Origin: Halarcobacter sp.
GTDB lineage: Bacteria; Campylobacterota; Campylobacteria; Campylobacterales; Arcobacteraceae
Assembly: GCF_963676935.1 (NCBI RefSeq)
Contig: NZ_OY781470.1
Span: forward strand, 992,001-1,056,000
Reading direction: 5' to 3'
Length of the DNA stretch: 64,000 nucleotides
In this document: in pieces, positions 2 to 26,385 of the stretch
How positions within the stretch are numbered: position 1 is the first letter of the stretch
Layout: every line of letters starts with the position of its first letter
Notes under the pieces: generated by a model
What the model saw: the letters and a program-made list of their open reading frames with translations, nothing else
Database searches by the model: none
Told to the model about the DNA's origin: nothing
Position numbers and translations under genes: made by a program

Positions 2-1654
2 ATCGAAAAAGATGGAAAAGTTGTTTCTGAATTTAAATTAGCTCCAAATACTATGACTGATGAGATGAGAGCAGGGGGAAGAATTCCATTAATTATTGGT
101 AAAGGTCTTACTGCAAAAGCAAGAGAAGCTTTAGGATTAGAAGCTACTGATATGTTTATTGCACCTGAGCAACCAGCTGATAACGGTAAGGGATATACTC
201 AAGCACAAAAAATGGTAGGAAGAGCTTGTGGTGTTGAAGGCGTTAAACCAGGTATGTACGTTGAACCAATCGCAACAACTGTTGGATCACAAGATACTAC
301 TGGACCAATGACTAGAGATGAGATTAAAGAGCTTGCAGCATTATCTTTTGGTGCTGATATGGTTATGCAATCATTCTGTCACACTGCTGCTTATCCAAAA
401 CCAGCAGATATCAAATTAAGACACACTTTACCAGATTTCATCAACTCAAGAGGTGGTGTTACACTTAAGCCAGGTGATGGTGTTATTCACTCATGGTTAA
501 ATAGACTTTGTTTACCAGATACTGTTGGTACTGGTGGAGATTCACATACAAGATTCCCAATTGGTATCTCATTCCCAGCTGGATCAGGTCTTATTGCATT
601 CGCAGGTGTTACAGGTATGATGCCTTTAACTATGCCAGAATCAGTACTTGTTAAATTCAAAGGTGAAATGCAACCAGGTATTACACTAAGAGATTTAGTA
701 AATGCTATTCCATATCAAGCTATTCAAGATGGTTTATTAACTGTTCCAAAGAAAAACAAAAAGAATGTTTTTGCTGGTACAATTATTGAAATTGCTGGTT
801 TACCAGATCTTAAAGTTGAGCAAGCATTCGAATTATCAGATGCAGCAGCAGAAAGATCAGCAGCAGCTTGTTCTGTTCAATTAGATAAAGAACCAATTAT
901 TGAATACTTATCTTCAAACATCGCTTTAATTGAAAAAATGATTGAAGAGGGTTACGAAGATGCAAGAACTCTTCAAAGAAGAGCTGATAAAATGAAAGAG
1001 TGGTTAGCAAATCCAGAATTAATTACTCCAGATGAAGATGCAGAATATAAAGCAGTAATCGAAATCGATTTAAATACAATCACTGAGCCAATCTTAGCTT
1101 GTCCTAACGATCCAGATGATGTTGATACACTTTCTAACATTTTAGCTGATCCAAATAGACCAACTGAGAAAATTGACGAAGTATTCGTTGGTTCTTGTAT
1201 GACAAATATCGGATTATTTAGAGCACTTGGTGAAGTTCTTAAAGGTGAGGGTGAAGTTCCTTCTAAATTATGGGTTGCACCTCCAACAAAAATGGATGAA
1301 GCTCAATTAACTGAAGAGGGATATTATGCTACATTTGCAGCAGCTGGAGCTAGAATAGAGATTCCAGGTTGTTCATTATGTATGGGTAACCAAGCACAAG
1401 TAAGTGAGGGGTCAGTTGTATTCTCAACTTCTACTAGAAACTTTGATAACAGACTTGGTAAAAACTCTAAAGTATACTTAGGTTCTGCAGAAATGGCAGC
1501 AGTATCTGCACTTCTTGGAAGACTTCCAAGTGTTGAAGAGTATATGAAAATTGTACCTGCAAAAATTACAGAGCAAAACAAAGATGGTGTTTATAAATAC
1601 TTAAACTTCCACCAAGTTTCTCCAGAGCAACTAACTAACTTAGTTCACTCTTAA
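2..1654 (+). CDS. acnB: Aconitate hydratase B, 3' part (5' truncated by window edge)
   Basis: The frame is open from base 2, so the gene starts outside the window; the ATG at 53 is internal. About 550 C-terminal residues remain of a family that is usually about 850-860 long. The product is the TCA-cycle enzyme that interconverts citrate and isocitrate with a [4Fe-4S] cluster. Visible AcnB features are a GGDSHTRFP stretch, a GSCMTN cysteine and a GCSLCMGNQ motif carrying two more cluster cysteines. This is the AcnB form rather than AcnA, consistent with the oxidative TCA cycle of Campylobacterota. It converges on the HAD gene through a shared hairpin terminator. Confidence 0.95.
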
Positions 1655-8057: not shown

Positions 8058-8934
8058 AAAACCAAAAGTTTTATGGCTTCAAGCCATAACTTGTAATGGT
8101 AATACCCACTCTTTTTTAAGTGCTAATGATAATAGAATGAAACTATTTTTAAATAGTTTTGATTTGATTTATCACCCTTCATTAACTACAGATATAACTA
8201 TTACGGAAATTATTAAAAAAAGAATAGAGATTGATTTTTTATTAGTTGAAGGAGCAATTACTTCTGATACTCATTTTTTCTCAACTTCTGGATATTCTCC
8301 CCATGAATTATTTAATAAATTAGTTAAACAAACAAAATATTTAATTGCTGTTGGTTCATGTGCTTCATATGGTGGTATACATGCAAAGTTTGAACAAAAT
8401 AGTGATATTAGAGGGATTAAAGATTCTCTTGATCCTGAAAACTTATATATTTTGAAGCATCCTATTGTAAATCTTACAGGTTGTCCTGTTAATCCAGAAT
8501 GGATTTTTCAAACTCTTTTTTCACTTAAAGATTTTGGGAAAATCATCCTTGATGAAGAGGGGCGTCCAAAAGAGTTATATTATAGTTTAGCTCATCATGG
8601 GTGTACTAGAAATGAGTATTTCGAATGGAAAATAGAAGGGCATTTTGGTCAAAAAGAGGGGTGCCTTTTTTATGACCAAGGATGTAGAGGTCCAATGACC
8701 CACTCAAATTGTAATAAAATATTATGGAATGATGTAAATAGTAAAACAAGAGCAGGTATGCCGTGTATTGGTTGTACAGAATTTGATTTTCCAAGAGAAA
8801 ATATGCTTGAAACTAAAAAAAATATAGGAATTCCTGATGAAGTGCCATTAGGTGTTACTAAAAGAGCATATCTCTCAGCAGCTGGTGTTGCTAAAACATT
8901 TAAAATAGATAGACTTCACAAAAAACTTATTTAA
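8047..8934 (+). CDS. [NiFe] hydrogenase small subunit, cytoplasmic, HupU/HoxB-like
   Basis: A 295-residue iron-sulfur subunit with no Tat signal and no C-terminal anchor, so predicted cytosolic. The N-terminal flavodoxin-like part begins KVLWLQAITCNGN. The usual CxxC of the proximal [4Fe-4S] cluster reads C16-N-G-N19, so the second ligand cysteine is Asn. The other proximal cysteines are present (VGSCASYGG, LTGCPVNP). The distal/medial cluster ligands are HHGC, EGC, QGC, SNC and PCIGC. It overlaps tetR by 11 bp and precedes its large subunit by 22 bp. It could be a sensory (HupUV/HoxBC) or a group 2 uptake enzyme. Confidence 0.85.
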   Translation: MKTKKPKVLWLQAITCNGNTHSFLSANDNRMKLFLNSFDLIYHPSLTTDITITEIIKKRIEIDFLLVEGAITSDTHFFSTSGYSPHELFNKLVKQTKYLIAVGSCASYGGIHAKFEQNSDIRGIKDSLDPENLYILKHPIVNLTGCPVNPEWIFQTLFSLKDFGKIILDEEGRPKELYYSLAHHGCTRNEYFEWKIEGHFGQKEGCLFYDQGCRGPMTHSNCNKILWNDVNSKTRAGMPCIGCTEFDFPRENMLETKKNIGIPDEVPLGVTKRAYLSAAGVAKTFKIDRLHKKLI

Positions 8935-8956
8935 ATTATATATTCAAGAGGCAAAT

Positions 8957-10312: not shown

Positions 10313-10542
10313 AGTGTATCTTTTTGTAACAACTATAAAATAAATTAAAACTTAAAAAATAATATAAAAAAAATTATATTAATATAAGATAAAAATACTC
10401 ATATTTTATTAATCAACGAAAACATAGCATTTAATCTTATTTATATAAAAACAAAAAATATTTTTTTATTTTTTCACCCTAAATATTAGTTAAAAATAAT
10501 AAGTTTAGCTTAAGTATCTAAAGGATAATTTTACAATGATGC
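10313..10542. other. AT-rich intergenic region upstream of hyd operon 1
   Basis: About 230 bp of very AT-rich sequence without coding potential between the sensor-like hydrogenase and hydA1. It presumably carries the hyd-1 promoter. I see no clear terminator and cannot place -35/-10 boxes with confidence. It ends at the palindrome at 10543. Confidence 0.6.
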
Positions 10543-10581: not shown

Positions 10582-11823
10582 ATGGTTGATTCTCACGACA
10601 TGGTAAAAAAAGTTTTTACCCAGAATTCTGCTAGAGTCGATACAAATAAAGGTGATGCATATTATAGTAAGCTTTTTGAAAAAGCAAAAACTAGATTAGA
10701 GGCATTAAAAAAGCAACCAGCACTTAAAGATATTGATATGATGGATATCGTAGAGAGTGAAGGTGTGAATAGAAGAGATTTCATGAAATGGGCAAGTGCA
10801 ACAACTGCTACATTAATGTTACCTCCTATGTTTACTCCATTAGTTGCTGAAGCTACAGAGTTAATGAATAGGGTTCCTGTAATTTGGATTGAATTACAAG
10901 ATTGTGCAGGTAACTCAGAAGCTTTATTAAGATCTTCTGCACCAACTGTAGATGATTTAATATTTGATGTATTAAGTTTAGAGTTCCATGAAACTATTAT
11001 GGCTGCTTCTGGACATCAAGCTGATGCACAATTAGAAGATGCAATTCATCACTTTAAAGGGAAGTATTTATTATTTGTTGAGGGTGCAATTCCTACAGCT
11101 ATGAATGGTCAATATGGAACAATTGGTGCAAGTGGTGAAACTTTCCAAGAACACTTAGAAAGATTATCTAACGATGCTGCTGCTGTTGTAGCTGTTGGAA
11201 CATGTGCTACTTTTGGTGGGATTCCTGCTGCTGCTCCAAATCCAACAGGTGCAGTTGGTGTTATGGATTTAGTTAAAGGTAAACCAGTAATTAATATCCC
11301 TGCCTGTCCGGCAAACCCTGCAAATATGGTTGGTGTTGTTTTACATTATGTATTAACTGGTCAAGTTCCTGAGTTAGACTCATTATTAAGACCTAAATTC
11401 GCATTTGGATATAGAATTCATGACAACTGTGAGAGAAGAGCTCACTTTGATGCTGGAGAATTTGTTGAAGAGTGGGGAGATGAAGGTGCTAAAAACAACT
11501 TCTGTTTATATAAAATGGGTTGTAAAGGTCCTATGACATTTAATAATTGTTCTATTATTAGATATAACGAAGGTGCAAACTGGCCAATTGGTGTAGGTCG
11601 AGGTTGTATTGGTTGTTCTGAGCCTGATTTCTGGGATAAATATGCTTATGAAAGACCAATGGCAGATGCTAATATCAAAGCACCAACTGGTGGGGTAGAA
11701 AAAACAGTTGATGAGTTTGGTTTAGGATTATTAACGGCAACAACAATTGGTATCGGTGTACATGCGGTAGCAAGTGCTGCAATTGGAAAAAGAACAGTTC
11801 ATAGTGAAGATGGAGAAGAGTAA
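10582..11823 (+). CDS. hydA: [NiFe] hydrogenase small subunit, Tat-exported, hyd operon 1
   Basis: Periplasmic iron-sulfur subunit of a quinone-reactive uptake hydrogenase, 413 residues. The start at 10582 is chosen because AAGGAG lies 6 bp upstream; an in-frame ATG at 10546 falls inside the operator palindrome. The Tat motif NRRDFMKW (residues 63-70) follows an unusually long, charged N-terminus. The proximal-cluster motif reads C108-A-G-N111 rather than CxGC, so one ligand is Asn. GTCATFGG and PACPANP supply the other ligands. RIHDNC, NNFC, MGCKGP, FNNC and GCIGC carry the remaining clusters. A hydrophobic C-terminal helix (about residues 380-402) is the membrane anchor. The stop overlaps hydB by one base. 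Confidence 0.92.
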   Translation: MVDSHDMVKKVFTQNSARVDTNKGDAYYSKLFEKAKTRLEALKKQPALKDIDMMDIVESEGVNRRDFMKWASATTATLMLPPMFTPLVAEATELMNRVPVIWIELQDCAGNSEALLRSSAPTVDDLIFDVLSLEFHETIMAASGHQADAQLEDAIHHFKGKYLLFVEGAIPTAMNGQYGTIGASGETFQEHLERLSNDAAAVVAVGTCATFGGIPAAAPNPTGAVGVMDLVKGKPVINIPACPANPANMVGVVLHYVLTGQVPELDSLLRPKFAFGYRIHDNCERRAHFDAGEFVEEWGDEGAKNNFCLYKMGCKGPMTFNNCSIIRYNEGANWPIGVGRGCIGCSEPDFWDKYAYERPMADANIKAPTGGVEKTVDEFGLGLLTATTIGIGVHAVASAAIGKRTVHSEDGEE

Positions 11824-13559
11824 TGAGTAAACACGTAGTAATAGATCCAATAACAAGGATTGAGGGACATTTAAGAATAGAAGCAGTAATTGATGATAAT
11901 AATGTAATTACTGATGCGTTTAGTTCATCTACAATGTTTAGAGGAATTGAAGAGATTTTAAAAGGTAGAGACCCTAGAGACTGTGGTCTTTTAGCTATGA
12001 GAATCTGTGGAGTTTGTACAGGTACACACTATCAAAGATCAATTGAAGCGGTTGAGCATGCATTTGGTGTTACTATTCCAAAAAATGCAAGACTTGTTAG
12101 AAACTTAATGCAAGGTGCATTATATCTTCATGACCATATTGTTCATTTCTATCATCTACATGCATTAGACTGGGTAGATATTACAGAAGCTTTAAAAGCT
12201 GATCCAAAAGCAACTGTTTTAGAGGCTCAAAAATGGGCAAAAGTTTCAGGGGCTAGACCTTGGAATGCTAGTGAAGATGTATTTGCTGAAGTTCAAGAAA
12301 GAGTTACTAAATATGTAAAACAAGGAAGACTTGGTATATTTGGGAATGCTTATTGGGGAAGTAAAGCATATAAGTTAACTCCTGAACAAAACCTTATTGG
12401 TCTTTCTCACTATTTAGATGCTTTAGATTTACAAAGAAAAATTGCAAAAGCTCAAGCTATTTTTGGTGGTAAAAATCCACATCCACAATCAATTGTTGTT
12501 GGGGGAGTAACTTGTGTACAAGATATTAAAAACCCTGCAAGAATTGCAGAGTTTAAAGATATTATTCAATTAGCTCAAAAATTTATAAAACAAGCATATC
12601 TTCCAGATGTATATATGGCTGGTACTATGTATGCTGATGAGGCACTAGCTGGTGTTGGTGGAGGATTAGGAAACTTTATGTCATATGGTGACTTTAATCT
12701 TGATGATACACCATTTTATGAAGCAAAAAAACTTTTCCCAAGTGGTATTGTAATGAATAAAGATTTATCAAAAGTGTTTGATTTAGATCAATCAAAAATC
12801 ACTGAAGATGTAACTCACGCTTGGTATGAAGGAAATGAAAATCTTCACCCATTTAGTGGGAAAACAAATCCTAATTATACTGGATTTAAAGAGAAAAAAG
12901 ATGGAATTGCATATTTAGATACAGATAAAAAATACTCTTGGATTAAATCTCCACTATATGATGACCAAAGAATGGAAGTGGGACCATTAGCTAGAATGAT
13001 TGTTGGTGTTGCAAGGGGTGATGAGAGAATCACTAAGCATGTTACAACTTTCCTTAAAAATGGAAATTTACCAACAAAAGTATTATTCTCAACTGTTGGA
13101 AGAACAGCAGGACGTGCTATTGAAACTGAATTGATGGCAGATGCTGTTTTAGAGTGGTGTGATGAATTAGCTGCTAATGCCGCATCGGGAGATTTATCAA
13201 CTTGGACTGAATTTGATTTTGACAAAGTTGCAAAAGATGCTCAAGGTTATGGTATGGCAGAAGCTCCAAGGGGTGCTTTAGGTCACTGGGTTAAGATTAA
13301 AGATGGAAAAGTTGCAAATTATCAAGCAGTTGTTCCTTCAACTTGGAATGCTGCTCCAAAAGATTATAAAGGTAGAATGGGTGCATATGAAGCTTCTTTA
13401 GTTGGTACTAAAGTTGTAGACCCTGACCAACCTTTAGAGATTATTAGAACAGTGCATAGTTTTGACCCTTGTATTGCTTGTGCAGTTCACATTGTTGATA
13501 CAAGAGGTAAAGAATTGGCAGTATATAAAGTAGATCCAGTAGGAGGATGCCGTGCCTAA
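11823..13559 (+). CDS. hydB: [NiFe] hydrogenase large subunit, hyd operon 1
   Basis: A 578-residue catalytic subunit holding the Ni-Fe(CN)2CO centre. Ni ligands are C62 and C65 (RICGVCTGTH) and C550 and C553 (DPCIACAVH). A 22-residue tail follows His556 and should be cleaved by the HydD protease before export with HydA. MSKHVVIDPITRIEGHLRIE is the standard N-terminal signature. It is translationally coupled to hydA (TAATG) and overlaps hydC by 8 bp. The length and tail match Wolinella/Helicobacter HydB. Confidence 0.95.
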   Translation: MSKHVVIDPITRIEGHLRIEAVIDDNNVITDAFSSSTMFRGIEEILKGRDPRDCGLLAMRICGVCTGTHYQRSIEAVEHAFGVTIPKNARLVRNLMQGALYLHDHIVHFYHLHALDWVDITEALKADPKATVLEAQKWAKVSGARPWNASEDVFAEVQERVTKYVKQGRLGIFGNAYWGSKAYKLTPEQNLIGLSHYLDALDLQRKIAKAQAIFGGKNPHPQSIVVGGVTCVQDIKNPARIAEFKDIIQLAQKFIKQAYLPDVYMAGTMYADEALAGVGGGLGNFMSYGDFNLDDTPFYEAKKLFPSGIVMNKDLSKVFDLDQSKITEDVTHAWYEGNENLHPFSGKTNPNYTGFKEKKDGIAYLDTDKKYSWIKSPLYDDQRMEVGPLARMIVGVARGDERITKHVTTFLKNGNLPTKVLFSTVGRTAGRAIETELMADAVLEWCDELAANAASGDLSTWTEFDFDKVAKDAQGYGMAEAPRGALGHWVKIKDGKVANYQAVVPSTWNAAPKDYKGRMGAYEASLVGTKVVDPDQPLEIIRTVHSFDPCIACAVHIVDTRGKELAVYKVDPVGGCRA

Positions 13560-14414: not shown

Positions 14415-14990
14415 ATGAAAAATATTGTTATTGGTGTAGGTAATGTACTATTTAAAGATGAAGGTGTAGGGATTTATGCCTCAAAATACTTAGATGAGAA
14501 TTTTGAATTTGATGATAGTTTAGAGATAATTGAAGGTGGTACATTAGGATTTAAATTAATGACATTTTTTCAAGAGTATGATAATGTAATTATTTTAGAT
14601 ACAGTATCAATCGAAGATAAAGCAGGGGAGATTTTTAGATTGCCTTCTGATGTATTATTGGGACTTGGTCAATATAGAAAAACTGCCCATGAAGTTGAAA
14701 TTGTGGAGATGTTAGAGATTTGTTCTGTTTTAGATAAACATGCAGAAGTTACTATTTTAGGAATAATACCAGAAGATATCGAAAGTGTTGATATTGGTCT
14801 TACAAAAACTATTGAAGAAAGATTTGACGAATATATAGGACAAGCTTTAAAGGAGCTTGAATCTATAGGAATTAATATGAAAAGAAAAGATAATAAATCT
14901 ATTAAACAAATTGCTCAAGAATTAATTGGAAGTTACAATGGTGAACATTTAACTAGAATTCCAAATGAGGAAGATACAACATGGAATTAA
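14415..14990 (+). CDS. hydD: Hydrogenase maturation endopeptidase, hyd operon 1
   Basis: A 191-residue HybD/HyaD-family protease that removes the C-terminal tail of the hydrogenase large subunit after Ni insertion. Ni-sensing residues correspond to E16 (DEGVG), D62-equivalent (LDTVS) and H93-equivalent (TAHEVE). The N-terminal signature IGVGNVLFKDEGVG is intact. The last 10 bases overlap hydE-1. It is separated from hydC-1 by 128 bp that contain a strong terminator, so it may use a separate promoter or depend on read-through. Confidence 0.92.
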   Translation: MKNIVIGVGNVLFKDEGVGIYASKYLDENFEFDDSLEIIEGGTLGFKLMTFFQEYDNVIILDTVSIEDKAGEIFRLPSDVLLGLGQYRKTAHEVEIVEMLEICSVLDKHAEVTILGIIPEDIESVDIGLTKTIEERFDEYIGQALKELESIGINMKRKDNKSIKQIAQELIGSYNGEHLTRIPNEEDTTWN

Positions 14991-16516
14991 TATATAAAAT
15001 CAATTTTTCAAGTACAAATTTTTATTTTAAAAATATTATAGATGATATTGCTAAAGAATCAAATGTTAATGTTAGTACAAAAATGTATAAAGGTTTTATT
15101 CTTTTAGTTTGTGATGATACACAAGAAAAAGTAGAAAATTTTTTTAAAAATCTGGAACAACAACTACCTTTATCTATATATTTATCAAGTGCAGAAGTTT
15201 TAGAAAGTTTTGATTTTGAAAATAATGAAGAGTTAGAAGATAAAGGAATAAAACTAAATATATCATTACTTACTAATAATCAAATTAAAAGAATTTTAGA
15301 AGAAAATCATATTGATTTTTCAAATGACATAAACAAAATAAAAGATGGTGGAGTATCTAGATATGAAACTCACAATGGGTTAAAAGATTTATTTTTACCT
15401 TCATATGAATTAAGAGAAGATTTTGAAGCAAAAGGTTATGAAGTTAAGCTTTTAATTACAAATATTAATGCAGTATCAAACTTATTAGAAGTATCACAAA
15501 AAGATTTACAATTGTTATGTTCAATCGAACGACCTCTTGTAAAACTTAGATTTAAACTTTTACAAAATTCTAATAAAGAGTATTCAAATACTAGATTTAT
15601 TTATGCAAAAATACCTGATGATAAAGAGACTGTATTATTTTCAAATGCTTTAAAAGAAAATGGAATTGATTATTTATTATATGTTAATGATGAGATTTAT
15701 CAAGATGGTTTAAAAGTTACATATAATGATAAACAAAATATTGTAATACATGGAGAAAAAACCCTTTTCCCTAAATATGATTATAATTTAAATAGACAAG
15801 TAAACTCTTGCAAAGATTATTTTGATGAATATGGTTCAGTATTTAAAGCAAAAATTGATCAGTTTAGCTTAAAAAATGTTCCTACTATAGGAGTTTACTT
15901 CTCATACGATAGCGATGAATCGGCAATTAAAATAAATCTTCCTGAAGTTGGAACAAAAGATGTGATTTATGTTCCAAATGTACTAAACAGTGTGGATAAT
16001 TGTTTAGAAGATATAAAGTCTATTGATGAAAATTGTGAAAGATTAGTAGAAAATTATAAAAATAAATATTCTAAATATTTTGAAAAAGAGTTTATAGACA
16101 GAGATAGTGATAGTTTTGCATCAATAATGAATATTCTTGCATATACATTAGGAATGAGAGATTATAAAGAGTTTGAAGATTGTGCTTTATTATATAATGG
16201 AAAAGGTGGAATTCAAATAGATATGAATGTGATTAAAATAGATGGTAAAAACTATTTAGATTACAGAAGAATAATTCAAAGTTCAATGAGTTATAAAATG
16301 GCTGGTGTTGAAGATACTATGATTGCATACTCTTTCTTTGAAAGTTTATCTGATTTTATTACAGATAATGTAAATACTATAAAAAAAGAGATAAAATCAA
16401 ATGATTTAATAATATGTGGAAATCTTTTTGCAAACTCAATACTACTTTCAAAAATAGGAAAAAATCTTAAAAATATTAATTTACATATTCCAAAAGAGTA
16501 TCCTTTAGATTTTTAG
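14981..16516 (+). CDS. hydE: HydE-type hydrogenase accessory protein, degenerate HypF relative
   Basis: A 511-residue protein in the position of Wolinella/Helicobacter hydE, overlapping hydD by 10 bp. It shares a C-terminal pattern with the 541-residue paralogue at 20994 (YKMAGVEDT vs FKLAGVEEK; LIICGNLFAN vs VSFCGDYIGE). Its domain order also follows HypF: an acylphosphatase-like N-terminus, a YrdC-like middle and a Kae1-like end (LIICGNLFAN vs HypF IVLTGGVFQN). It lacks the zinc cysteines, the HHxAH and DGTGYG motifs, and ends at EYPLDF, where HypF has IPLNDGG. A non-catalytic maturation role is inferred. Confidence 0.7.
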   Translation: MELIYKINFSSTNFYFKNIIDDIAKESNVNVSTKMYKGFILLVCDDTQEKVENFFKNLEQQLPLSIYLSSAEVLESFDFENNEELEDKGIKLNISLLTNNQIKRILEENHIDFSNDINKIKDGGVSRYETHNGLKDLFLPSYELREDFEAKGYEVKLLITNINAVSNLLEVSQKDLQLLCSIERPLVKLRFKLLQNSNKEYSNTRFIYAKIPDDKETVLFSNALKENGIDYLLYVNDEIYQDGLKVTYNDKQNIVIHGEKTLFPKYDYNLNRQVNSCKDYFDEYGSVFKAKIDQFSLKNVPTIGVYFSYDSDESAIKINLPEVGTKDVIYVPNVLNSVDNCLEDIKSIDENCERLVENYKNKYSKYFEKEFIDRDSDSFASIMNILAYTLGMRDYKEFEDCALLYNGKGGIQIDMNVIKIDGKNYLDYRRIIQSSMSYKMAGVEDTMIAYSFFESLSDFITDNVNTIKKEIKSNDLIICGNLFANSILLSKIGKNLKNINLHIPKEYPLDF

Positions 16517-16568
16517 TAAAAAAAATTTACAATTTAAAAATCAATCTATAAAAGCATTTTAATTAATT

Positions 16569-16600
16569 ATAAGATATTAGTTTATCTAATATCTTATTTT
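16569..16600. terminator. Hairpin terminator after hydE-1
   Basis: ATAAGATATTAG (16569-16580) pairs with CTAATATCTTAT (16586-16597) across a 5-nt loop. It is followed by TTT and an AT-rich stretch. Confidence 0.7.
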
Positions 16601-16777
16601 AATTATTTGTATATAAACTAAAATGTAAAAATAATGTCCTAAAGCATAAAAAATTGGTTAATTGTCACACTAAAGTCACATTAGAAAGATTATAATTAAT
16701 TATAATAAAAAATTTTTATAAAATAACTAGTATTTTAGTTAAAGTTAAGTTTAAGTCATGTAATATTCTTTATAAAT

Positions 16778-16791
16778 AATGAATATTCATT
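16778..16791. promoter_or_regulatory. Candidate TetR operator, site C (before hydA2)
   Basis: AATGAATATTCATT is a perfect 14-bp palindrome about 86 bp before the hydA-2 GTG start. It shares ATGAA-N2-TTCAT with sites A and B. Confidence 0.55.
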
Positions 16792-16877
16792 CAAATATTT
16801 ATTGGTGTCAAATTTTTTTGCCCTGATTTTTTATAATCTAATTATGAATGAATAATTGTTCAATAAAGGAAAAAATT

Positions 16878-18035
16878 GTGAAAGAGAATAGTTTATTTAA
16901 CAGACTTTCTAAAAGATTAGAGACTCTTGAAAAACTTCCAAAATTAGATGAAAAAAAATCTATTCCACAAGTTTTAGAAGAGAAAGGTATCTCAAGAAGA
17001 GACTTTATGAAATGGGCTACAGCAGTTACAGCTATGTTAGCTTTACCAGCTAACTTTACACCATTAGTTGCAAAAGCTGCTGAAATAAGTGATAGATTGC
17101 CAATTATTTGGCTTCATATGGCAGAGTGTACGGGATGTTCTGAATCTTTATTAAGAACTGATGCCCCTACTATAGATTCATTGATTTTTGACTATATCTC
17201 TTTAGAGTATCATGAAACTTTAATGGCTAGTGCAGGGTGGCAAGCTGAACATAACTTAGAGCATGCAATTGAAAAGCATAAAGGAAACTATATCCTTATG
17301 GTTGAGGGTGGTATTCCAAGTGGAGATACAAATTTTTATTTAACAATTGGTGGTCATGGTAATACTGGTGAACATAGTGCTAAAGTAGCCTGTGAAAGTG
17401 CAAAAGCAATTTTTGCTATTGGTACATGTTCATCTTTTGGTGGTGTTCAAGCTGCAATTCCTAATCCAACTGGAGCAGTTGCTTTAAGTAAAATTACTAA
17501 CAAACCAGTTATTAATGTTCCAGGATGTCCTCCAAGTGAGAAAAATATTGTAGGAACTTTATTACATTTTATTCTTTATGGTACACTGCCAGCATTAGAT
17601 GCTTATAATAGACCAAAATGGGCGTATGGACAAAGAATTCACGATTTATGTGAAAGAAGAGGTCACTTTGATGCAGGTGAGTTTGTTGAAGAGTTTGGTG
17701 ATGAAGGTGCGAAAAAAGGTTATTGTTTATATAAAGTTGGTTGTAAAGGACCATATACATTTAATAACTGTTCTAAAAATAAATTTAACCAACATACCTC
17801 TTGGCCAATTCAAGCAGGACATGGTTGTATAGGTTGTTCTGAACCAGATTTTTGGGATACTATGGGACCATTTGAAGAACCAGTTGCTGATAGATTATAT
17901 GATACTGTATTTGGTGGCTTAGGTGCAGATGCAACAGCAGATAAAATTGGTGTTGGATTATTAGCAGTTACTGGTATTGGTATAGCTGCACACGCTGCAA
18001 TTTCAAAATTTAAAAACCCAAAAGATGAGGAGTAG
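16878..18035 (+). CDS. hydA: [NiFe] hydrogenase small subunit, Tat-exported, hyd operon 2
   Basis: A 385-residue periplasmic subunit of the second quinone-reactive hydrogenase. The GTG at 16878 is preferred because AAAGGA lies 7 bp upstream; an ATG at 16848 has no such site. The Tat motif SRRDFMKW covers residues 39-46. The proximal cluster motif is canonical here (C84-T-G-C87 in AECTGCSESLLR), unlike the operon-1 paralogue. GTCSSFGG and PGCPPSE complete it. There is no supernumerary cysteine of the O2-tolerant type. A C-terminal hydrophobic anchor (KIGVGLLAVTGIGIAAHAAI) is present. It closely resembles Wolinella, Helicobacter and Campylobacter HydA. Confidence 0.95.
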   Translation: MKENSLFNRLSKRLETLEKLPKLDEKKSIPQVLEEKGISRRDFMKWATAVTAMLALPANFTPLVAKAAEISDRLPIIWLHMAECTGCSESLLRTDAPTIDSLIFDYISLEYHETLMASAGWQAEHNLEHAIEKHKGNYILMVEGGIPSGDTNFYLTIGGHGNTGEHSAKVACESAKAIFAIGTCSSFGGVQAAIPNPTGAVALSKITNKPVINVPGCPPSEKNIVGTLLHFILYGTLPALDAYNRPKWAYGQRIHDLCERRGHFDAGEFVEEFGDEGAKKGYCLYKVGCKGPYTFNNCSKNKFNQHTSWPIQAGHGCIGCSEPDFWDTMGPFEEPVADRLYDTVFGGLGADATADKIGVGLLAVTGIGIAAHAAISKFKNPKDEE

Positions 18036-18038
18036 AAA

Positions 18039-19769
18039 ATGGCAACAAAAAGAGTTATTGTTGACCCTATAACAAGAATTGAAGGACACTTAAGAATTGA
18101 AGTAGAGGTTGATGAAAATAATGTAATTCAAGATGCTTTCTCATCAGCTACTTTATGGAGAGGGTTAGAAACAATTGTAAAAAATAGAGACCCAAGGGAT
18201 GCAGGTTTTCTTATGCAAAGAATTTGTGGTGTATGTACTTTCTCTCACTATAGAGCTGGAATTGAAGCAGTTGAAAATGCCTTAGGAATTGTTCCTCCTT
18301 TAAATGCAAAATTAACTAGAAGTTTAATGAATCAAGCACTATTTATGCATGACCATGTTGTACATTTTTATCATTTACATGGATTAGATTGGGTTGATGT
18401 TGTATCAGCACTTGATGCAGATCCTGCAAAAGCAGCAAAAGAAGCTTTCAAATATACTAAATATCCAATTGCAACAGGAGAAAATGATTTAGTAAAAGTT
18501 AAAGATAGAGTAAAAGCTTTTGTTGATAAGGGTGAATTAGGGCCTTTCGCAAATGCATATTGGGGACATGGGACATTTAAATTTACTCCAGAACAAAACC
18601 TTATTGCACTTTCTCACTATTTAAAAGCACTAGAAGTACAAAGAACTGCTGCACAACTTATGGCAATGTTTGGTGGTAAACAACCACACCCTCAAAGTTT
18701 AACTGTTGGTGGGGTTACTTGTGTAATGGATCTATTAGATCCATCAAGACTTGGCGAATATATGGTTAAGTATAAAGAGGTTGCAGAGTTTATTGAACAT
18801 GCATATTATGCAGATATTAAAATGGCTGCAAGTGTTTATGCAAGTGAAGAAAGTGTTGTTCAAAAAGCTGGAACTATGAACTTTATGTCACATCAAGAGA
18901 TGCAATTAAACAGAACTGAGTATCTATTTGATACTGGTATTATTATGAATGGAGATTTATCAAAAGTTTATCCAATCAATGAAGATTTAATCACAGAAGA
19001 AGCAACTCATGCATGGTATGCAGATGATGAACCTTTACATCCATATAATGGAAAAACAAATCCAAAATATACTGGATTAAATGATAGAATGACTGTTGGG
19101 CCTGATGGGAAAGAGATTCATTCTAAATCAGTAGATGATAAAGGTAAATACTCTTGGATTAAATCACCAAGATATGATGGAAAACCGATGGAGGTTGGAC
19201 CATTATCTGGAGTATTAGTATCTTATGCTAGTGGAAATAAAAGAATTAAAAAAGTTGTAGATGAATTTTTAGCAGAAACTGGATTGCCAACAGAAGCTTT
19301 ATTTACTGCACTAGGTAGAACAGCTGCTAGATGTTTACAAGCTATGGCAATCATTAAAAATGGTGATGAGACATTTAATACATTAATTGAAAACTTAAAA
19401 GTTGACCAAGATACTTGTGCTTCTTATCTTATAGATAAAGATAAAGAGTATAAAGGAAGATTTATTGGTGATGTTCCAAGGGGTATGTTATCACACTGGA
19501 TTAGAATTAAAAATGGTGTTATAGAAAACTACCAAGCAGTTGTACCTTCAACATGGAATGCTGGTCCTGAGGATTCTAAAGGTCAAAAAGGTCCTTATGA
19601 AACAAATCTAATTGGTCTAAAAGTAGAAGATATTTCTAAACCTTTAGAGATTATTAGAGTTATTCATAGTTTTGACCCATGTATTGCTTGTGCTGTTCAT
19701 GTAATGGATAAAAAAGGTAATAACCTGGGAGTTTACAAAGTTGACCCAGTTTATGGAACTAGCTGTTAG
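18039..19769 (+). CDS. hydB: [NiFe] hydrogenase large subunit, hyd operon 2
   Basis: A 576-residue catalytic subunit. Ni ligands are C63 and C66 (RICGVCTFSH) and C548 and C551 (DPCIACAVH). A 22-residue cleavable tail follows His554. It lies 3 bp after hydA-2 with GAGGAG at the junction. It is clearly paralogous to the operon-1 large subunit and carries an extra insertion around residues 345-365 (LNDRMTVGPDGKEIHSK). It would be exported as a folded pair with HydA through Tat. Confidence 0.95.
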   Translation: MATKRVIVDPITRIEGHLRIEVEVDENNVIQDAFSSATLWRGLETIVKNRDPRDAGFLMQRICGVCTFSHYRAGIEAVENALGIVPPLNAKLTRSLMNQALFMHDHVVHFYHLHGLDWVDVVSALDADPAKAAKEAFKYTKYPIATGENDLVKVKDRVKAFVDKGELGPFANAYWGHGTFKFTPEQNLIALSHYLKALEVQRTAAQLMAMFGGKQPHPQSLTVGGVTCVMDLLDPSRLGEYMVKYKEVAEFIEHAYYADIKMAASVYASEESVVQKAGTMNFMSHQEMQLNRTEYLFDTGIIMNGDLSKVYPINEDLITEEATHAWYADDEPLHPYNGKTNPKYTGLNDRMTVGPDGKEIHSKSVDDKGKYSWIKSPRYDGKPMEVGPLSGVLVSYASGNKRIKKVVDEFLAETGLPTEALFTALGRTAARCLQAMAIIKNGDETFNTLIENLKVDQDTCASYLIDKDKEYKGRFIGDVPRGMLSHWIRIKNGVIENYQAVVPSTWNAGPEDSKGQKGPYETNLIGLKVEDISKPLEIIRVIHSFDPCIACAVHVMDKKGNNLGVYKVDPVYGTSC

Positions 19770-19778
19770 GAGCAAATT

Positions 19779-20447
19779 ATGATAAAAAAACATTATGAAT
19801 TTTCATATTGGCTTAGAGTAACTCACTGGGTTAGGGCAATTGCAATTGTAATATTAACTGCATCAGGATTTTATATTGCCTATCCTTTTATTTCTCCTGC
19901 AACAAATGGGGGAGAACCAACAAATTTTTTAAATGCTTTATTTAGATCGTGGCATATTATTTTTGGTTTTCTTTTAATTGCAGTTACAATAGGAAAATTT
20001 TATCTATTTATTTTTGATAAGCAAAGTAGATTAGAAAGGGATTCTTTCTGGGATTTTATAAATCCAAAAGTTTGGATACAACAAATAGGTTATTATATGT
20101 TAATAACTAAACATCCACATGGAAAAGGTGTTTATAATCCTCTTCAATTTATGGCATATGTAGGTATATATATATCTATAGTGATGATATCTTTAACAGG
20201 ACTTATTTTATATGTACATGTTTATCATGAGGGAATGGGCGGAGTACTTTTTGATGTAATGAGAAGTTTTGAAGTACTTTTAGGTGGATTAGCATGGGTT
20301 AGAGAATTACACCATATATTTATGTGGGTATTTATTATATTCTTGCCAATACATGTATATCTAGCAGTATTTAATTCTGTATACGGTAAAAGTGGAGCTA
20401 TGGATTCAATTATCAGTGGTTACAGATGGATTAAAAGTAAAAAATAA
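19779..20447 (+). CDS. hydC: Hydrogenase cytochrome b subunit, hyd operon 2
   Basis: A 222-residue inner-membrane cytochrome b with four helices. Candidate haem ligands lie in VTHWVR, RSWHI, ELHHIFMW and PIHVYL. Sequence similarity to the operon-1 HydC is modest, and this one matches the classical Wolinella HydC layout better. AGGAGC precedes the start. It transfers electrons from HydAB to the menaquinone pool. Its stop overlaps the hydD-2 ATG by one base, so here the protease is directly coupled, unlike in operon 1. Confidence 0.92.
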   Translation: MIKKHYEFSYWLRVTHWVRAIAIVILTASGFYIAYPFISPATNGGEPTNFLNALFRSWHIIFGFLLIAVTIGKFYLFIFDKQSRLERDSFWDFINPKVWIQQIGYYMLITKHPHGKGVYNPLQFMAYVGIYISIVMISLTGLILYVHVYHEGMGGVLFDVMRSFEVLLGGLAWVRELHHIFMWVFIIFLPIHVYLAVFNSVYGKSGAMDSIISGYRWIKSKK

Positions 20448-21010
20448 TGAATATATTAATACTAGGAATTGGTAATATTTTGTTTCAAGATGAGGGTATA
20501 GGTGCTCATTTTATACATTATATAGATGAAAAATATGAGTTTTCATCTGACAAACATAGTGTCAATATAGTTGATGGAGGAACTTTAGCCCAAAGGTTAA
20601 TTCCTCTAATCATCAAATTTGATAAAGTTTATGTGGTTGATTGTATTGATGCACTAGATTCAAAAGCAGGTGATGTTTATTTTTTTGATTATTTAAAGGC
20701 ACCTTCCGAGATTGATTGGCAAGGTAGTGCCCATGAAATTGAGATGTTACAGACATTAAATATGATAAAAATGAATGGAGATTTGCCTGAAACTCATGTT
20801 ATTGGAGTTATTCCTAAACGAATAGCAGATGATACAACTTTTGATTTAAGTGAAGAGATTGTAAAAGCAACAGCTACTATGGAACATACACTTATTAAAT
20901 CATTAGAAGAGATGGGTGTAGAGATATCTATTAGAAACAAAGATATTACTATTGAAGATATTTCAAAAATATCTTTTAAAAGAGAGATTATAAATGATTC
21001 TAGAATATAA
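20447..21010 (+). CDS. hydD: Hydrogenase maturation endopeptidase, hyd operon 2
   Basis: A 187-residue HybD-family protease. LGIGNILFQDEGIG holds the Ni-binding Glu, VVDCIDALD the Asp and SAHEIEML the His. It should process the operon-2 large subunit tail. It overlaps hydE-2 by 17 bp, repeating the hydD-hydE overlap of operon 1, which suggests the two products work together. Confidence 0.93.
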   Translation: MNILILGIGNILFQDEGIGAHFIHYIDEKYEFSSDKHSVNIVDGGTLAQRLIPLIIKFDKVYVVDCIDALDSKAGDVYFFDYLKAPSEIDWQGSAHEIEMLQTLNMIKMNGDLPETHVIGVIPKRIADDTTFDLSEEIVKATATMEHTLIKSLEEMGVEISIRNKDITIEDISKISFKREIINDSRI

Positions 21011-22619
21011 ATTTGTTTATCAATCAAACAATAATTATTTTGTTGAGTATATTGATAACATATTAAAACAAAAGGAGACAAAATATTATATTAATAGAGA
21101 AAATGAAAATATATTTTTATATGTAGAAGATGAAGAAGAAAGATTACTAAAAATTTCAGATGAGTTGTCAAATGAACTTCCAATATCAATATTTTTAAAA
21201 GATTTTGCATTGGAAGTTGTATCACAAATACCTCTTATAAACTATCAATATACCCTAGATAGTTGCCAAAAGTCTTATTGTTCAAATTGTTTAGCAGAAA
21301 TCGAAAATAAAGAAATGACAAATTATTATAATCCCTTCATAAATTGTCAACTTTGTGGTACAACTTCCAATGTTAAATCTCTTGATATCTTCGAAAATAA
21401 AGAAAAAATTGAATTTGATAATTTCAAAAATAGTTTTGAATTTTTAGCTTCTAAAATTGCCCAAGGCAAAACATTAGAGATAAAAAATGCAAATAAAAAA
21501 ATATATCTAAAAAAATTGGAAAAAGTTGAATATGAAAATCAAACTGTATTATGTACAGATATTAATAATCTGTCAAAAATAGCAGTTGGTTCAAAACAAA
21601 AAAATATATTGCTTTTAAGTCTTGAAAAACCAATTATTGAATTTAATCTAAATGCAATCTATAAAAAAAGTATGGAAATAGAATTTGATAAGATCAATGT
21701 GATTGCTTCTTGGGATTTAGTAATATATTTACTTTCAAAAGAGTTACAGAAATTAAATATAGATTTTTTAAGTATTGAGCAAGATAATCAAGAATCTAGT
21801 GTTACAGTTGAATATAAAAGAGAGTTAAATTTTCCAAAAATTTCTGTAACAGAAAACAATATCTATATACTTGAAAACAATTGTTATGATAAAAGATTAA
21901 ATAAGGTTTATAATAGTTTTGATGAGAAGTCTAAGTCTCAATTTATGGTCTTACTAGATGAAAATAAACTTTATGAAAAAACAGTTTTAAACTTTTTTAT
22001 CTCTTCAAAATATGATGATGGTATCAATCTGTATTCATCAAAAATTGATGGTCTTGTTGATATTGTAAAATATAATATTCCAAATAGTATAAGTGAGCTT
22101 ATTGAAAATATTGAAAAAACTGAAAATGGTGATAAACTAATAAATAGTTATAAAGAAAAATTTCCAGATATTTATAAAAAAGCAATAGAGTCAAATATAG
22201 ATAATAATCTAAATTCTATTACAAACTTGTGGAAAATAGCTTCAACTATTTTGGATTTGGATGATATTTATAAAACTGCAAAATCTTGCCTTTTACAAAA
22301 GGGACCAAGAATAGATTATAAACTTAAAAAAAGTGATAAATTATTTAACAAAGAGTTTGATATTGTTAGTTTTATAAAAAGTGGCATTAGTTTTAAACTT
22401 GCAGGAGTTGAAGAAAAAACTCTATCTTTAGGCTATGTTGAAAGCTTTATATATTTTATTAGTGATTTATATGATGAGGTAAATGAACAGTTTGAAGTTG
22501 ATGGAGTCTCATTTTGCGGAGATTATATAGGTGAGGAGATTATAAATAAACTAATTGCTAAAGCTTTCAATAAAACTTCTAAATTATATTATAATAAGGA
22601 TTTTCCAATACAATTATAA
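20994..22619 (+). CDS. hydE: HydE-type accessory protein with HypF-like zinc finger
   Basis: A 541-residue paralogue of the protein at 14981. It retains one zinc finger with the spacing C96-x2-C99-x18-C118-x2-C121. This is exactly the spacing of the first HypF finger encoded in the next gene, including the YxxxxxNCxxCG end. Downstream segments align in order with HypF YrdC (LASKIAQGKTLEIK vs IALKIDKGEIVAIK; SLEKPI vs SKEKPI) and with the end of the Kae1-like domain. The carbamoyl-transfer metal motifs and the final DGG are missing. It lies 18 bp before hypF. Origin by hypF duplication and decay, and a non-catalytic role, are inferences. Confidence 0.75.
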   Translation: MILEYKFVYQSNNNYFVEYIDNILKQKETKYYINRENENIFLYVEDEEERLLKISDELSNELPISIFLKDFALEVVSQIPLINYQYTLDSCQKSYCSNCLAEIENKEMTNYYNPFINCQLCGTTSNVKSLDIFENKEKIEFDNFKNSFEFLASKIAQGKTLEIKNANKKIYLKKLEKVEYENQTVLCTDINNLSKIAVGSKQKNILLLSLEKPIIEFNLNAIYKKSMEIEFDKINVIASWDLVIYLLSKELQKLNIDFLSIEQDNQESSVTVEYKRELNFPKISVTENNIYILENNCYDKRLNKVYNSFDEKSKSQFMVLLDENKLYEKTVLNFFISSKYDDGINLYSSKIDGLVDIVKYNIPNSISELIENIEKTENGDKLINSYKEKFPDIYKKAIESNIDNNLNSITNLWKIASTILDLDDIYKTAKSCLLQKGPRIDYKLKKSDKLFNKEFDIVSFIKSGISFKLAGVEEKTLSLGYVESFIYFISDLYDEVNEQFEVDGVSFCGDYIGEEIINKLIAKAFNKTSKLYYNKDFPIQL

Positions 22620-22637: not shown

Positions 22638-24857
22638 ATGGAAGCAGTTTTTATTGAAGTAAAAGGTATTGTTCAAGGGGTGGGTTTTAGGCCCTTTGTT
22701 TATAACTTAGCTATTTCAAACAATCTTAATGGATGGGTTAACAATGATGACCAAGGTGTAAATATTCATCTTGAAGGTGACACTACTTCTATAAACAACT
22801 TTTTAACTAAACTTGAAAACTATGCACCACCTTTATCAAAAATAGATTCAATAAAAAAAACTAAAATTAAACAAAAAAACTATAATAGTTTTGAAATAAC
22901 AAAAAGTGAAAATACTTCAAATAAAACCACAATTATCTCCCCTGATATGGCAGTATGTGATGATTGCATTAATGATATAAATGATAAAAACAACTTTAGG
23001 TATAACTATGCTTTAACAAATTGTACAAACTGTGGACCTAGGTATTCTATTATAAAAACAGTTCCTTATGATAGATGTAATACTTCTATGGCAAATTTTC
23101 AGATGTGTAATGATTGTGAAAAAGAGTATATGGATCCAACAAATAGAAGATACCATGCACAACCAGTAGCTTGTGAAAAGTGTGGACCAAAAATCGCCTT
23201 GTATGATTCAAAAAATCAATTAATATCATCTAATGAAAGTGCAATTAAAAATATTGCTTTAAAAATAGATAAAGGTGAAATTGTAGCTATAAAAGGTATG
23301 GGTGGTTTTCATTTAATTTGTGATGCAACAAATGATAGAGTAGTTAGAAAATTAAGGGAAAGAAAAAATAGACCTACAAAACCATTTGCAGTTATGTTTA
23401 AAGATATTATTCAGATAAAAGAGTTTGCAAAATTAACAAAAAAAGAGGAAGAGATACTTGTCTCAAAAGAGAAACCTATAACTTTAGTTAAAACTATAAG
23501 TTCAAAATTGAGTTCACAAGTTGCACCAAATATTGATAGATTAGGGTGTTTTATAGCTTATACTCCTTTACATATAATACTTTTTAAGCATCTAAAAAAT
23601 CCAATTGTTGCAACTAGTGCCAATCTTTCAGATGAACCAATAATTAGACAAAAAGAGGAGTTACTTCAAAAGCTTGGAAACGTTATAGATTTTGTTTTAG
23701 ATTTCAATAGAGAGATAATAAATGCTTGTGATGATTCTGTTGTTCAAGTTGTAAATGATGATATCTCTGTCTTAAGAAATGCAAGAGGTTACGCACCATC
23801 ATCAATAAAACTTGATAAAAAAACAGACAAAAAGATATTAGCTTTAGGTGCAAATCAAAAAGCAACTATTGCATTAGCATTTGAAAACAACTTAGTATTA
23901 TCTCCTCATATAGGAGATTTAAACTCTATTACCTCAATGGAATATTTTGAAAGAACAATTAATACTTTTAAAAATTTTTATGACTTTAAACCAGATATTA
24001 TAGTTTGTGATAAACATCCAAATTATGAAAGTGTTAAATGGGCAAAAACTCAAAATATTAAAATCGTACAAATACAACATCATTATGCACATGTTTTATC
24101 AACTATGGCAGAATATAAATTAGATGAGCAGGTTTTAGCTTTCTCTTTTGATGGTACAGGTTATGGTGATGATAAAAATATTTGGGGTGGAGAGGTTTTT
24201 ATTGCAAATAAAAAAGAGTATAAAAGAATTAAACATTTTAAATATTTTAAACTTTTAGGTGGAGAAAAGTCAGTAAAAGAGCCTAAAAGAGTTGCACTTT
24301 CTTTACTTTTTGATACTTTTTCACTTGATGAAATATTAACTTTAGATACTCCTACTGTAAAAGCATTTTCAACAAATGAGATTAAAATAATGCATACAGT
24401 TTGGCAAAAAGGTTTAAATGCCCCTTTTACAAGCTCACTTGGAAGATTATTTGATGCCATAGCATCTTTTAGTGGCATATTACAAATTCAAACTTATGAA
24501 GGTCAAACAGGTCTTCAAATTGAAATGGCATATAATAGAAATATTAAAGAAGCTTATACTTATAAGATTGAAGATGAAGATATAGATTTATCAATGGCTA
24601 TCAAAGAGATTATAAAAGATAATAATAAAGAACTTATATGTACTAAGTTTATAAATATGCTTGTTAATCTAATCTTAGATATATCAAATCTATATAAACT
24701 TCCTATTGTATTAACAGGTGGCGTATTTCAAAATAAAACACTCCTAGAAGCAGTTTGTGAAAATTTGGAAAAGAGCAAAAAGAGATATTATTATTCTAAA
24801 AATATCCCTTTAAATGATGGTGGAATTGCAATGGGACAACTATATTCACAAATTTAG
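22638..24857 (+). CDS. hypF: Carbamoyltransferase HypF
   Basis: A 739-residue cytosolic enzyme that starts cyanide-ligand synthesis: it makes carbamoyl-AMP from carbamoyl phosphate and ATP and transfers the carbamoyl group to HypE. Domains in order are acylphosphatase (GIVQGVGFRPFVY, 1-90), two zinc fingers (CDDC...CTNCG; CNDC...CEKCG, about 105-185), YrdC-like (about 200-380) and Kae1-like with HHYAH, SFDGTGYG, TGGVFQN and NDGG. All key motifs are intact. It follows hydE-2, so one HypF appears to serve all three hydrogenases. Its 3' end overlaps the convergent DUF420 gene by 4 bp. Confidence 0.95.
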   Translation: MEAVFIEVKGIVQGVGFRPFVYNLAISNNLNGWVNNDDQGVNIHLEGDTTSINNFLTKLENYAPPLSKIDSIKKTKIKQKNYNSFEITKSENTSNKTTIISPDMAVCDDCINDINDKNNFRYNYALTNCTNCGPRYSIIKTVPYDRCNTSMANFQMCNDCEKEYMDPTNRRYHAQPVACEKCGPKIALYDSKNQLISSNESAIKNIALKIDKGEIVAIKGMGGFHLICDATNDRVVRKLRERKNRPTKPFAVMFKDIIQIKEFAKLTKKEEEILVSKEKPITLVKTISSKLSSQVAPNIDRLGCFIAYTPLHIILFKHLKNPIVATSANLSDEPIIRQKEELLQKLGNVIDFVLDFNREIINACDDSVVQVVNDDISVLRNARGYAPSSIKLDKKTDKKILALGANQKATIALAFENNLVLSPHIGDLNSITSMEYFERTINTFKNFYDFKPDIIVCDKHPNYESVKWAKTQNIKIVQIQHHYAHVLSTMAEYKLDEQVLAFSFDGTGYGDDKNIWGGEVFIANKKEYKRIKHFKYFKLLGGEKSVKEPKRVALSLLFDTFSLDEILTLDTPTVKAFSTNEIKIMHTVWQKGLNAPFTSSLGRLFDAIASFSGILQIQTYEGQTGLQIEMAYNRNIKEAYTYKIEDEDIDLSMAIKEIIKDNNKELICTKFINMLVNLILDISNLYKLPIVLTGGVFQNKTLLEAVCENLEKSKKRYYYSKNIPLNDGGIAMGQLYSQI

Positions 24858-25740: not shown

Positions 25741-26385
25741 TTAGTTATAATATAACTCTTTTAATATCTCAATTTGTTTGTTTTGCAGATAATTAAATTT
25801 AAATTCGCACTCTTTTAAATAGTAAAAAAAATTTTCTTCATCTACACCTTTGTATTTTTTAAGATTTTCTTCTAAATATTTCCAAAAAATATGTAAAGGT
25901 GTAGTATATGCGTATTGAGAATATATTTTATGCCATTTTAAATAGTTTTCGAAGTTTTTATTATCTTCTCCTCTATCATATCTACTAAGCTTAGGCATTA
26001 AAAGTGTAAAAACTTTTTTATTTGAGTAAAAACCTATTATATTTATAGCTTCATATAGGGAACGACTTTTATCTTTTTTTTGTCTGTTTGTAAAGTAATA
26101 GTATTCTTCATATGAACTATTATCTTGTACTGTATTGTAATGTTGTTCTTCTAAATAGTAAGCAATAAGTTTTCTAAAAAGAGTAAATCTATTTTGTATA
26201 GTTCTATAATTTACATTTAATATTTTTGCACATCTATTCGCGTTAATATTATTACAAAAAAGCTCAATAACTCTTTTGTCTATTTCTAGTTTTTTAAGAG
26301 AAAATTTTTTTTTACATACACTACATTTTTTATAATTATTTTGTAGGTTATACAATCTTTTACTTTTACAAAAGGGACATCTCAT
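25741..26385 (-). pseudogene. IS1595-like transposase relative with decayed catalytic core, possibly domesticated
   Basis: A 214-residue protein. An N-terminal zinc ribbon (CPFC...CSVCKKKF, residues 3-26) and a helix-turn-helix (CAKILNVNYRTIQNRF) are followed by an IS1595/ISXO2-like segment (KWHKIYSQYAYTTPLHIFWK, GVDEENFFYYLKECEFKFNY). The usual first acidic pair reads SYEEYYYFT and the segment carrying the second catalytic Asp is missing, so transposition activity is unlikely. The frame is intact and no terminal inverted repeats are visible. It diverges from hypB and may have been kept as a DNA-binding protein. It is listed under pseudogene only because the transposase core is decayed. Confidence 0.6.

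Follow-up and report, generated by a model that had tools for sequence, protein, structure and literature searches.

Genomic context of the two hydE genes

The window, a stretch of 64,000 nucleotides of the Halarcobacter sp. genome (contig NZ_OY781470.1, positions 992,001 to 1,056,000), contained two hydA-hydB-hydC-hydD-hydE units. In both units hydE was the last gene, and hypF was the next gene after the second unit (Table 1). An earlier reading of the DNA letters (the sequence-only reading) had described the two products, HydE-1 and HydE-2, as degenerate paralogues of the maturase HypF without catalytic motifs, and the open reading frame (ORF) list confirmed both genes at the positions it gave. 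HydE-1 and HydE-2 are full-length HypF paralogues, an observation stronger than the one first stated. Relatives were gathered from 60 related genomes and from contigs of named genomes; the contig scan used a profile of 14 sequences (A2), a first profile of 30 sequences (A1) being too diverse, and its results are the best 80 of 173 confirmed places.

Table 1. Genes and domains of the two hyd units and of hypF (window positions; aa, amino acids)
Feature	Position	Strand	Remarks
hydE1, HypF paralogue without zinc fingers	14981..16516	+	511 aa
HydE-1 acylphosphatase-like domain, aa 1-76	14981..15208	+	secondary structure E-H-E-E-H-E; catalytic Arg and Asn lost
HydE-1 YrdC/TsaC-like domain, ~aa 99-256	15275..15748	+	TsaC-type matches at 104-276, Z 10.5-10.7
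HydE-1 Kae1/TsaD-like domain, ~aa 257-511	15749..16513	+	HypF_C_2 at aa 413-502; TsaD/Kae1 up to Z 15.1
hydE2, HypF paralogue with one zinc finger	20994..22619	+	541 aa
HydE-2 acylphosphatase-like domain, aa 1-78	20994..21227	+	E-H-E-E-H-E; aligned to 3vti_A from residue 1
HydE-2 zinc finger with HypF spacing, aa 96-122	21279..21359	+	zf-HYPF E 1.9e-4; C-x2-C-x18-C-x2-C
HydE-2 YrdC/TsaC-like domain, ~aa 144-295	21423..21878	+	structure match, alignment, profile comparison
HydE-2 Kae1/TsaD-like domain, ~aa 296-541	21879..22616	+	structure match and alignment
hydD1, maturation protease (HycI family)	14415..14990	+	3' end overlaps hydE1 start
hydD2, maturation protease (HycI-type)	20447..21010	+	3' end overlaps hydE2 start
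hydB1, [NiFe] large subunit	11823..13559	+	proposed client of HydE-1
hydB2, [NiFe] large subunit	18039..19769	+	proposed client of HydE-2
hypF, carbamoyltransferase, catalytic paralogue	22638..24857	+	739 aa; every motif present; TIGR00143 831.6 bits (cut-off 466.1)

Homology of HydE to HypF

HydE-1 and HydE-2 showed clear kinship to each other (BLASTP E 8e-20, 25% identity). Their BLASTP comparisons with HypF were marginal (E 6e-4 and 0.006, a single comparison each) and the identity was very low, so the signal used in the sequence-only reading was close to the detection limit. In Pfam, HydE-1 matched HypF_C_2 with 30.3 bits, above the cut-off of 27, and HydE-2 matched zf-HYPF with 21.6 bits, slightly below the cut-off of 23; the Kae1 part of HydE-2 was not recognised when searched alone (10.7 bits). 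The TIGR00143 scores of the two proteins, 13.9 and 18.3 bits, were far under the family cut-off. Pfam was also weak on the HydE family, and among ten relatives scanned, L042 and L038 had one match each below the cut-off and L043 had none at E 0.01. The gap to HypF was bridged by five long HydEs of 586-672 aa (L037, L039, L040, L047, and L050), which carry both HypF-type fingers and scored 51.9-60.9 bits with zf-HYPF.

Profile-profile comparison gave far-reaching matches. Nine long HydEs matched 25 HypFs with a probability of 99.9% (E 1.9e-37) over nearly the full length, and the HydE-1-type and HydE-2-type sets alone reached 90.8 and 97.1%, respectively. With larger sets, each window HydE matched HypF end to end (99.6%, E ~1e-23). 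The probability did not exceed 6.2% in any of 28 control comparisons, in which four HydE sets were run against reversed HypF, HydB, HypD, HypE, HypB, the second large subunit, and HydA. When the HydE profile was compared with all PDB sequences, the top four rows were HypF (E 1.9e-29 to 1e-7), and no match other than HypF was found under E 0.02.

Both AlphaFold models were of high confidence, with a predicted local distance difference test (pLDDT) of 93.3 for HydE-2 and 92.1 for HydE-1, the alignment for the latter (A4) holding just 7 HydE-1-type rows among 46, and a predicted template modelling score (pTM) of 0.89 for each. The nine top PDB chains in Foldseek were all HypF for both models, the best being the HypE-HypF complex 3vti for HydE-2 (5.3e-23) and 3vth for HydE-1 (8.0e-21); single-domain TsaC/Sua5, TsaD/Kae1, and kinase-type relatives ranked after HypF. 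In VIA-align, residues 1..541 of HydE-2 were superposed on 10..734 of 3vti_A (Z 17.8, root-mean-square deviation 5.0 Å, 511 residues), as were residues 1..511 of HydE-1 (Z 19.4, 4.4 Å, 467 residues). The fold is thus HypF-like along the full chain, with the HypF domain order of acylphosphatase, finger region, YrdC, and Kae1, HydE-1 being without fingers. The YrdC-like and Kae1-like segments that the sequence-only reading had placed in HypF order were borne out by the end-to-end profiles and by the fold. Either a profile search without HypF or a predicted fold of another kind would have contradicted that reading, and neither was observed. The N-terminal ~78 residues of both HydEs are acylphosphatase-like, a feature absent from that reading; the VIA-align superposition spans the whole chain, and this N-terminus is therefore retained.

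Loss of catalytic residues and zinc fingers

The catalytic motifs HHxAH and DGTGYG were missing from both HydEs, and their C-termini, PLDF and PIQL, lay at the position of PLNDGG in HypF. Residues were counted in an alignment of 125 HydEs, 47 from the window and the related genomes and 78 from named contigs, and 77 HypFs; identical HydE sequences and those shorter than 440 aa (495 aa for named contigs) had been dropped, and part of the sequences had been selected at 440-700 aa and more than 150 bits. R18 and N36, which we take to be the catalytic Arg and Asn of the HypF acylphosphatase, were present in 0/125 and 1/125 HydEs and in 76/77 HypFs. The Kae1 residues H481, H485, D505, and D727, the last presumably the C-terminal Asp of the site, were found in 3, 4, 4, and 8 of the 125 HydEs and in 76-77 of the 77 HypFs. 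In YrdC, the SxN segment was deleted in every HydE (S327 and N329 0/125), and K243 and R245 of KxR occurred in 9/125 and 4/125, counts that vary with the alignment in this very divergent, gap-rich region; all four residues were present in 77/77 HypFs. The motif pairs KxR...SxN (YrdC) and HxxH...D (Kae1) follow PMC9654439. Any one HydE retained at most two of these ten residues. All ten were nearly invariant in HypF and showed no variation in a further set of 15 aligned HypFs, seven of which came from Alpha- and Gammaproteobacteria and Firmicutes. The motif loss proposed for the two window proteins thus holds across the 125 HydEs.

HypF cleaves carbamoyl phosphate, forms carbamoyl-adenylate, and, via an internal channel, passes the carbamoyl group to the C-terminal Cys of HypE (PMC6022934, PMC12134894). 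HydE has lost the residues that serve to hydrolyse carbamoyl phosphate, to form carbamoyl-adenylate, and to transfer the carbamoyl group.

The two C4 zinc fingers of HypF are reduced to one in HydE-2 and to none in HydE-1. As the sequence-only reading had noticed, the HydE-2 finger (C96-x2-C99-x18-C118-x2-C121) has exactly the spacing of C107-x2-C110-x18-C129-x2-C132 in HypF, and the motif YxxxxxNCxxCG reads YYNPFINCQLCG in HydE-2 and YNYALTNCTNCG in HypF. All four Cys of finger 1 were present in 58/125 HydEs and none in 57/125. Finger 2 was complete in 5/125 and lost in 119-120/125.

Selection, conserved residues, and origin

Both hydE genes are under purifying selection. The ratios of nonsynonymous to synonymous substitution rates (dN/dS) against the nearest species, a single species pair, were 0.061 for HydE-1, 0.122 for HydE-2, and 0.126 for hypF; values of 0.06-0.12 ruled out decaying genes. 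In HydE-2 numbering, E211 and G509 were conserved in 125/125 HydEs, D441 in 122/125, S466 in 121/125, and E483 in 118/125. HypF often has E211 and G509 as well, but not D441, S466, and E483. The conserved Asp was missing from three HydEs (L148, L061, and L057). The first (8907-10454) is an orphan without recognised hydrogenase neighbours, in which six further strongly conserved residues were altered and one Leu was changed to Ile; neither a hydABC-type HydB nor HypF was found in its genome, which is 98% complete. At L061 (13805-15337, minus strand), as at L069 (3068-4600), hydE1 stays though hydA1B1C1D1 is gone from the locus, and Gly410 and Asp414 of the L061 HydE-1, both conserved, were altered. 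Loss of the Asp therefore goes with loss of the hydrogenase in two of three cases, an association that is suggestive and, owing to L057, not clean.

In a phylogenetic tree of 39 sequences, the 15 HydEs formed a single clade on a very long branch (1.98; ultrafast bootstrap 85), which joined a long-branched Butyrivibrio HypF outside the 17 Campylobacterota HypFs. Derivation of HydE from the neighbouring campylobacterotal hypF is unsupported by this placement. The grouping with Butyrivibrio HypF looks like long-branch attraction. Of the earlier proposal that HydE arose from hypF, the descent itself is likely, as HypF has a wide distribution and the HydEs found here are from Campylobacterota; the tree resolves neither its time nor the donor lineage. 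The best 80 of 173 HydE places all carried Campylobacterota labels, except for two ("bacterium" and "Proteobacteria bacterium"), and in the plasmid collection HydE was found in Sulfurimonas and Sulfurovum only.

Association of HydE with hydABC-type hydrogenases

HydE tracks the hydrogenase and not HypF. The 60 related genomes were picked by kinship and provide a fairer co-occurrence test than the fetched loci; a hydABC-type large subunit was taken as one of at least 600 bits or the truncated one of 344 bits in G037, and G031, whose large-subunit gene has no hydC with it, was left out. All 46 genomes with such a subunit (30 genera, 16 of the genomes being from one genus) contained HydE, and HydE without it occurred in one genome (G030). 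HypF was above the cut-off in 44 of the 46 (exceptions G037, 83% complete, and G040, 99% complete) and occurred without HydE in five genomes (G031, G046, G054, G056, and G059). At the loci, hydE lay within 4.5 kb of hydC at 106 of 108 fetched hydC genes, most of which (including L068-L147) were fetched because they hold HydE; at L143 it lay further downstream, behind two inserted genes. No hydE adjoined the seven large-subunit genes without hydC. The HydD and HydE frames overlapped in 93/105 operons when the first start codon was taken. Across 68 operons, the patristic distances of HydE correlated with those of HydB (0.871) and HydD (0.834) above those of HypF (0.629), and the partial correlation with HydB given HypF was 0.866. 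There is thus nearly always one HydE copy per hydABC(D) operon, and it evolves in step with HydB and HydD.

The HybE and HupH_C families were found in 0/41 genomes searched, E. coli being positive among 14 control genomes. HyaE (PF07449) had matches in 40/41 genomes, 39 of them above the cut-off (best 28.9 bits). These matches nearly always spanned roughly half the profile, and the ORFs concerned (104-185 aa) are inferred to encode thioredoxins. A 123-aa frame directly upstream of hypF (G048:C3:16964-17239; profile positions 5-97, 28.4 bits) may encode a HyaE-like protein.

A hydA-hydB-hydD set near the hydABC type at L160 (6925-10482, minus strand) has no hydC or hydE, and the genome holds two other HydEs.

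Possible role of HydE

HydE is probably a HypF pseudoenzyme that serves as a non-catalytic, hydrogenase-specific assembly factor or holder. The operon position, the co-occurrence with hydABC, and the mutant phenotypes support this part of the sequence-only reading; the partner may be pre-HydB, HypE, or HypCD. The need of Helicobacter hydrogenase for hydE has been reported since 2004: H. pylori hydE mutants lacked hydrogenase activity, were not rescued by nickel, and had normal urease (PMC7695850, citing Benoit 2004). Most simply, the HydE step would therefore concern Fe(CN)2CO or the large subunit and not nickel. HydE would act after or beside HypF, off the nickel branch, and the groove that receives the HypE C-terminal tail in HypF may have been reused to hold the cognate pre-HydB, perhaps gripped through its own C-terminal extension. 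Alternatively, the groove might hold HypE/HypCD against pre-HydB. In either case, the holding could last during the handover of Fe(CN)2CO until HydD cleaves the tail. Because HydE follows its client hydrogenase and the protease, a client-specific holder of pre-HydB is favoured over a general partner of HypF; this preference is tentative, as is the proposed reuse of the groove for the HypE tail.

Several observations weigh against this role. In two biofilm assays, the phenotypes of H. pylori hydE and hypF mutants were opposite (PMC7695850), an outcome left unexplained if the two genes merely share a role in hydrogenase. At L057 the conserved Asp is Ala, yet the operon retains hydB1, hydC1, and hydD1, so the Asp is not absolutely required. 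At L066 (13342-13963; genome G009), hydA2B2C2D2 is followed directly by hypF and hydE2 is missing while hydE1 is present, so hydE2 is not indispensable there. The G040 draft (L045) contained hydABCD and HydE with no HypF above the cut-off; this may be a draft gap or real, and a HypF acting upstream would not predict it unless there is a gap. The correlation between HydE and HydB could come from operon linkage alone, and the dependence of the KxR counts on the alignment also counts on this side.

Other explanations bear on the same evidence. HydE might be a membrane or twin-arginine translocation (Tat) assembly factor that holds HydA/HydB until the cytochrome b anchor HydC is met. A table in PMC7695850 gives HydE a part in the membrane localisation of the complex, but the discussion of that 2020 paper calls its function unknown. 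HydE accompanies hydC at the 106 loci and, further down, at L143, the hydABD set at L160 lacks both hydC and hydE, and none of the 41 genomes has HybE or HupH_C; on the other hand, most of the hydC loci were chosen by HydE, and the genome of L160 has HydEs elsewhere. We know of no HypF fold that works as a membrane or Tat assembly factor, and this explanation is rather unlikely. That HydE is a TsaB-like partner or regulator of HypF or HypE, tuning cyanide-ligand synthesis cell-wide, would agree with their common ancestry, with hydE adjoining hypF in many operons, and with the precedent of TsaB (PMC9654439). However, five of 60 genomes have HypF without HydE, G030, G037, and G040 have HydE without HypF above the cut-off, and HydE goes with hydABC operons and tracks HydB above HypF in its distances, which makes such a partnership distinctly unlikely.

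If the old pocket had acquired a new function, in catalysis or in ligand binding, this could account for the conservation of E211, G509, D441, S466, and E483, the last three not being typical of HypF. Such a gain is nevertheless highly unlikely, as nearly all HydEs have lost the ATP and metal motifs of YrdC and Kae1 and no other enzyme family in Pfam or NCBIfam was above the cut-off. The very low pairwise identity would be expected if HydE resembled HypF by chance or convergence. This is refuted for practical purposes by the end-to-end profile matches with their negative controls, by significant matches to HypF only among PDB sequences, and by the nine HypF chains at the top of both fold searches.

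Comparison with known systems

The window HydEs presumably share both name and operon place with Wolinella hydE. H. pylori hydE (HP0635) has the same name and the same place as the last gene of hydABCDE, and it was noted to correspond to Campylobacter hydrogenase E (PMC3561388); its tie to the window HydEs is through name, operon place, and this remark. Campylobacter-labelled loci fell within the HydE family among the best 80 of 173 places of the contig scan. HydE shares with HypF (TIGR00143; PDB 3vth, 3vti, 4g9i, and 3tsp) the fold and the acylphosphatase/YrdC/Kae1 order, together with the first zinc finger in HydE-2 and both fingers in the five long relatives; it differs in its lost catalytic residues, its shorter length (511 and 541 vs 739 aa), and a score far under the family cut-off.

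HoxV/HupK, an inactive protein related to a member of the pathway and believed to hold Fe(CN)2CO (PMC12134894), is alike in kind, but it resembles the large subunit, whereas HydE resembles the maturase HypF. A likeness of HydE to the large subunit was not detected in the profile comparisons with HydB-1 and the second large subunit (at most 6.2%), nor was any large-subunit family among its Pfam and NCBIfam matches. TsaB has a Kae1-type fold without the nucleotide/metal site of TsaD and works as its partner (PMC9654439), whereas HydE retains the whole HypF scaffold and tracks its client hydrogenase rather than the enzyme HypF. The radical S-adenosylmethionine (SAM) maturase HydE of [FeFe] hydrogenases has only the name in common with the window HydEs, in which Pfam and NCBIfam searches found no radical-SAM domain.

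HydE itself is known, and its nature as an inactive HypF appears to be new. No statement of HydE-HypF relatedness was found in a search of open-licence literature, subscription papers such as those on Wolinella hydE not being covered; the accessible part of PMC7695850 does not mention a HypF ancestry of H. pylori HydE, nor does that of a 2025 review of maturation mention HydE. NCBI annotation calls hydE a "hypothetical protein" in two plasmid records, once adjoining hypF. Identification as an inactive HypF gives HydE a fold, likely partners (HypE, HypCD, and pre-HydB), and residues to mutate, and the question of its role is therefore directly testable. HydE would then join HoxV/HupK and the NifE-type scaffold (PMC3534401) as an inactive relative of a pathway protein that serves as a scaffold in building a metal centre.

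Neighbouring and related loci

The L066 locus offers a natural experiment on the ability of HydE-1 to serve both hydrogenases. The genes inserted at L143 (4251-8436), between hydC and hydD-hydE, encode a molybdopterin oxidoreductase and an NrfD-type (polysulphide reductase) protein, suggesting a hydrogen-to-sulfur respiratory unit. In the window, hypD and hypE are separated by a class I glutamine amidotransferase gene (28908-29627, plus strand; GATase 71.3 bits); a phmmer search of the L036-L159 ORFs at E 1e-6 gave no homologue. A transposase-like protein of ~214 aa without a Pfam match is encoded upstream of hypB on the opposite strand (25741-26385, minus strand). A homologue, in divergent orientation every time, lay no more than 3.5 kb upstream of hypB at 31 entries (30 loci, some of which share a genome) of 43 hypB loci, and the protein resembles a domesticated hyp-operon regulator. 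In Sulfurimonas and Sulfurovum plasmids, genes of similar size at this position are annotated as "transposase". A large part of the hydrogenase cluster, with HydE and hyp genes, is plasmid-borne in Sulfurimonas paralvinellae (L161) and Sulfurovum mangrovi (L162), and hypF of the latter is annotated as two genes, the acylphosphatase part and the remainder.

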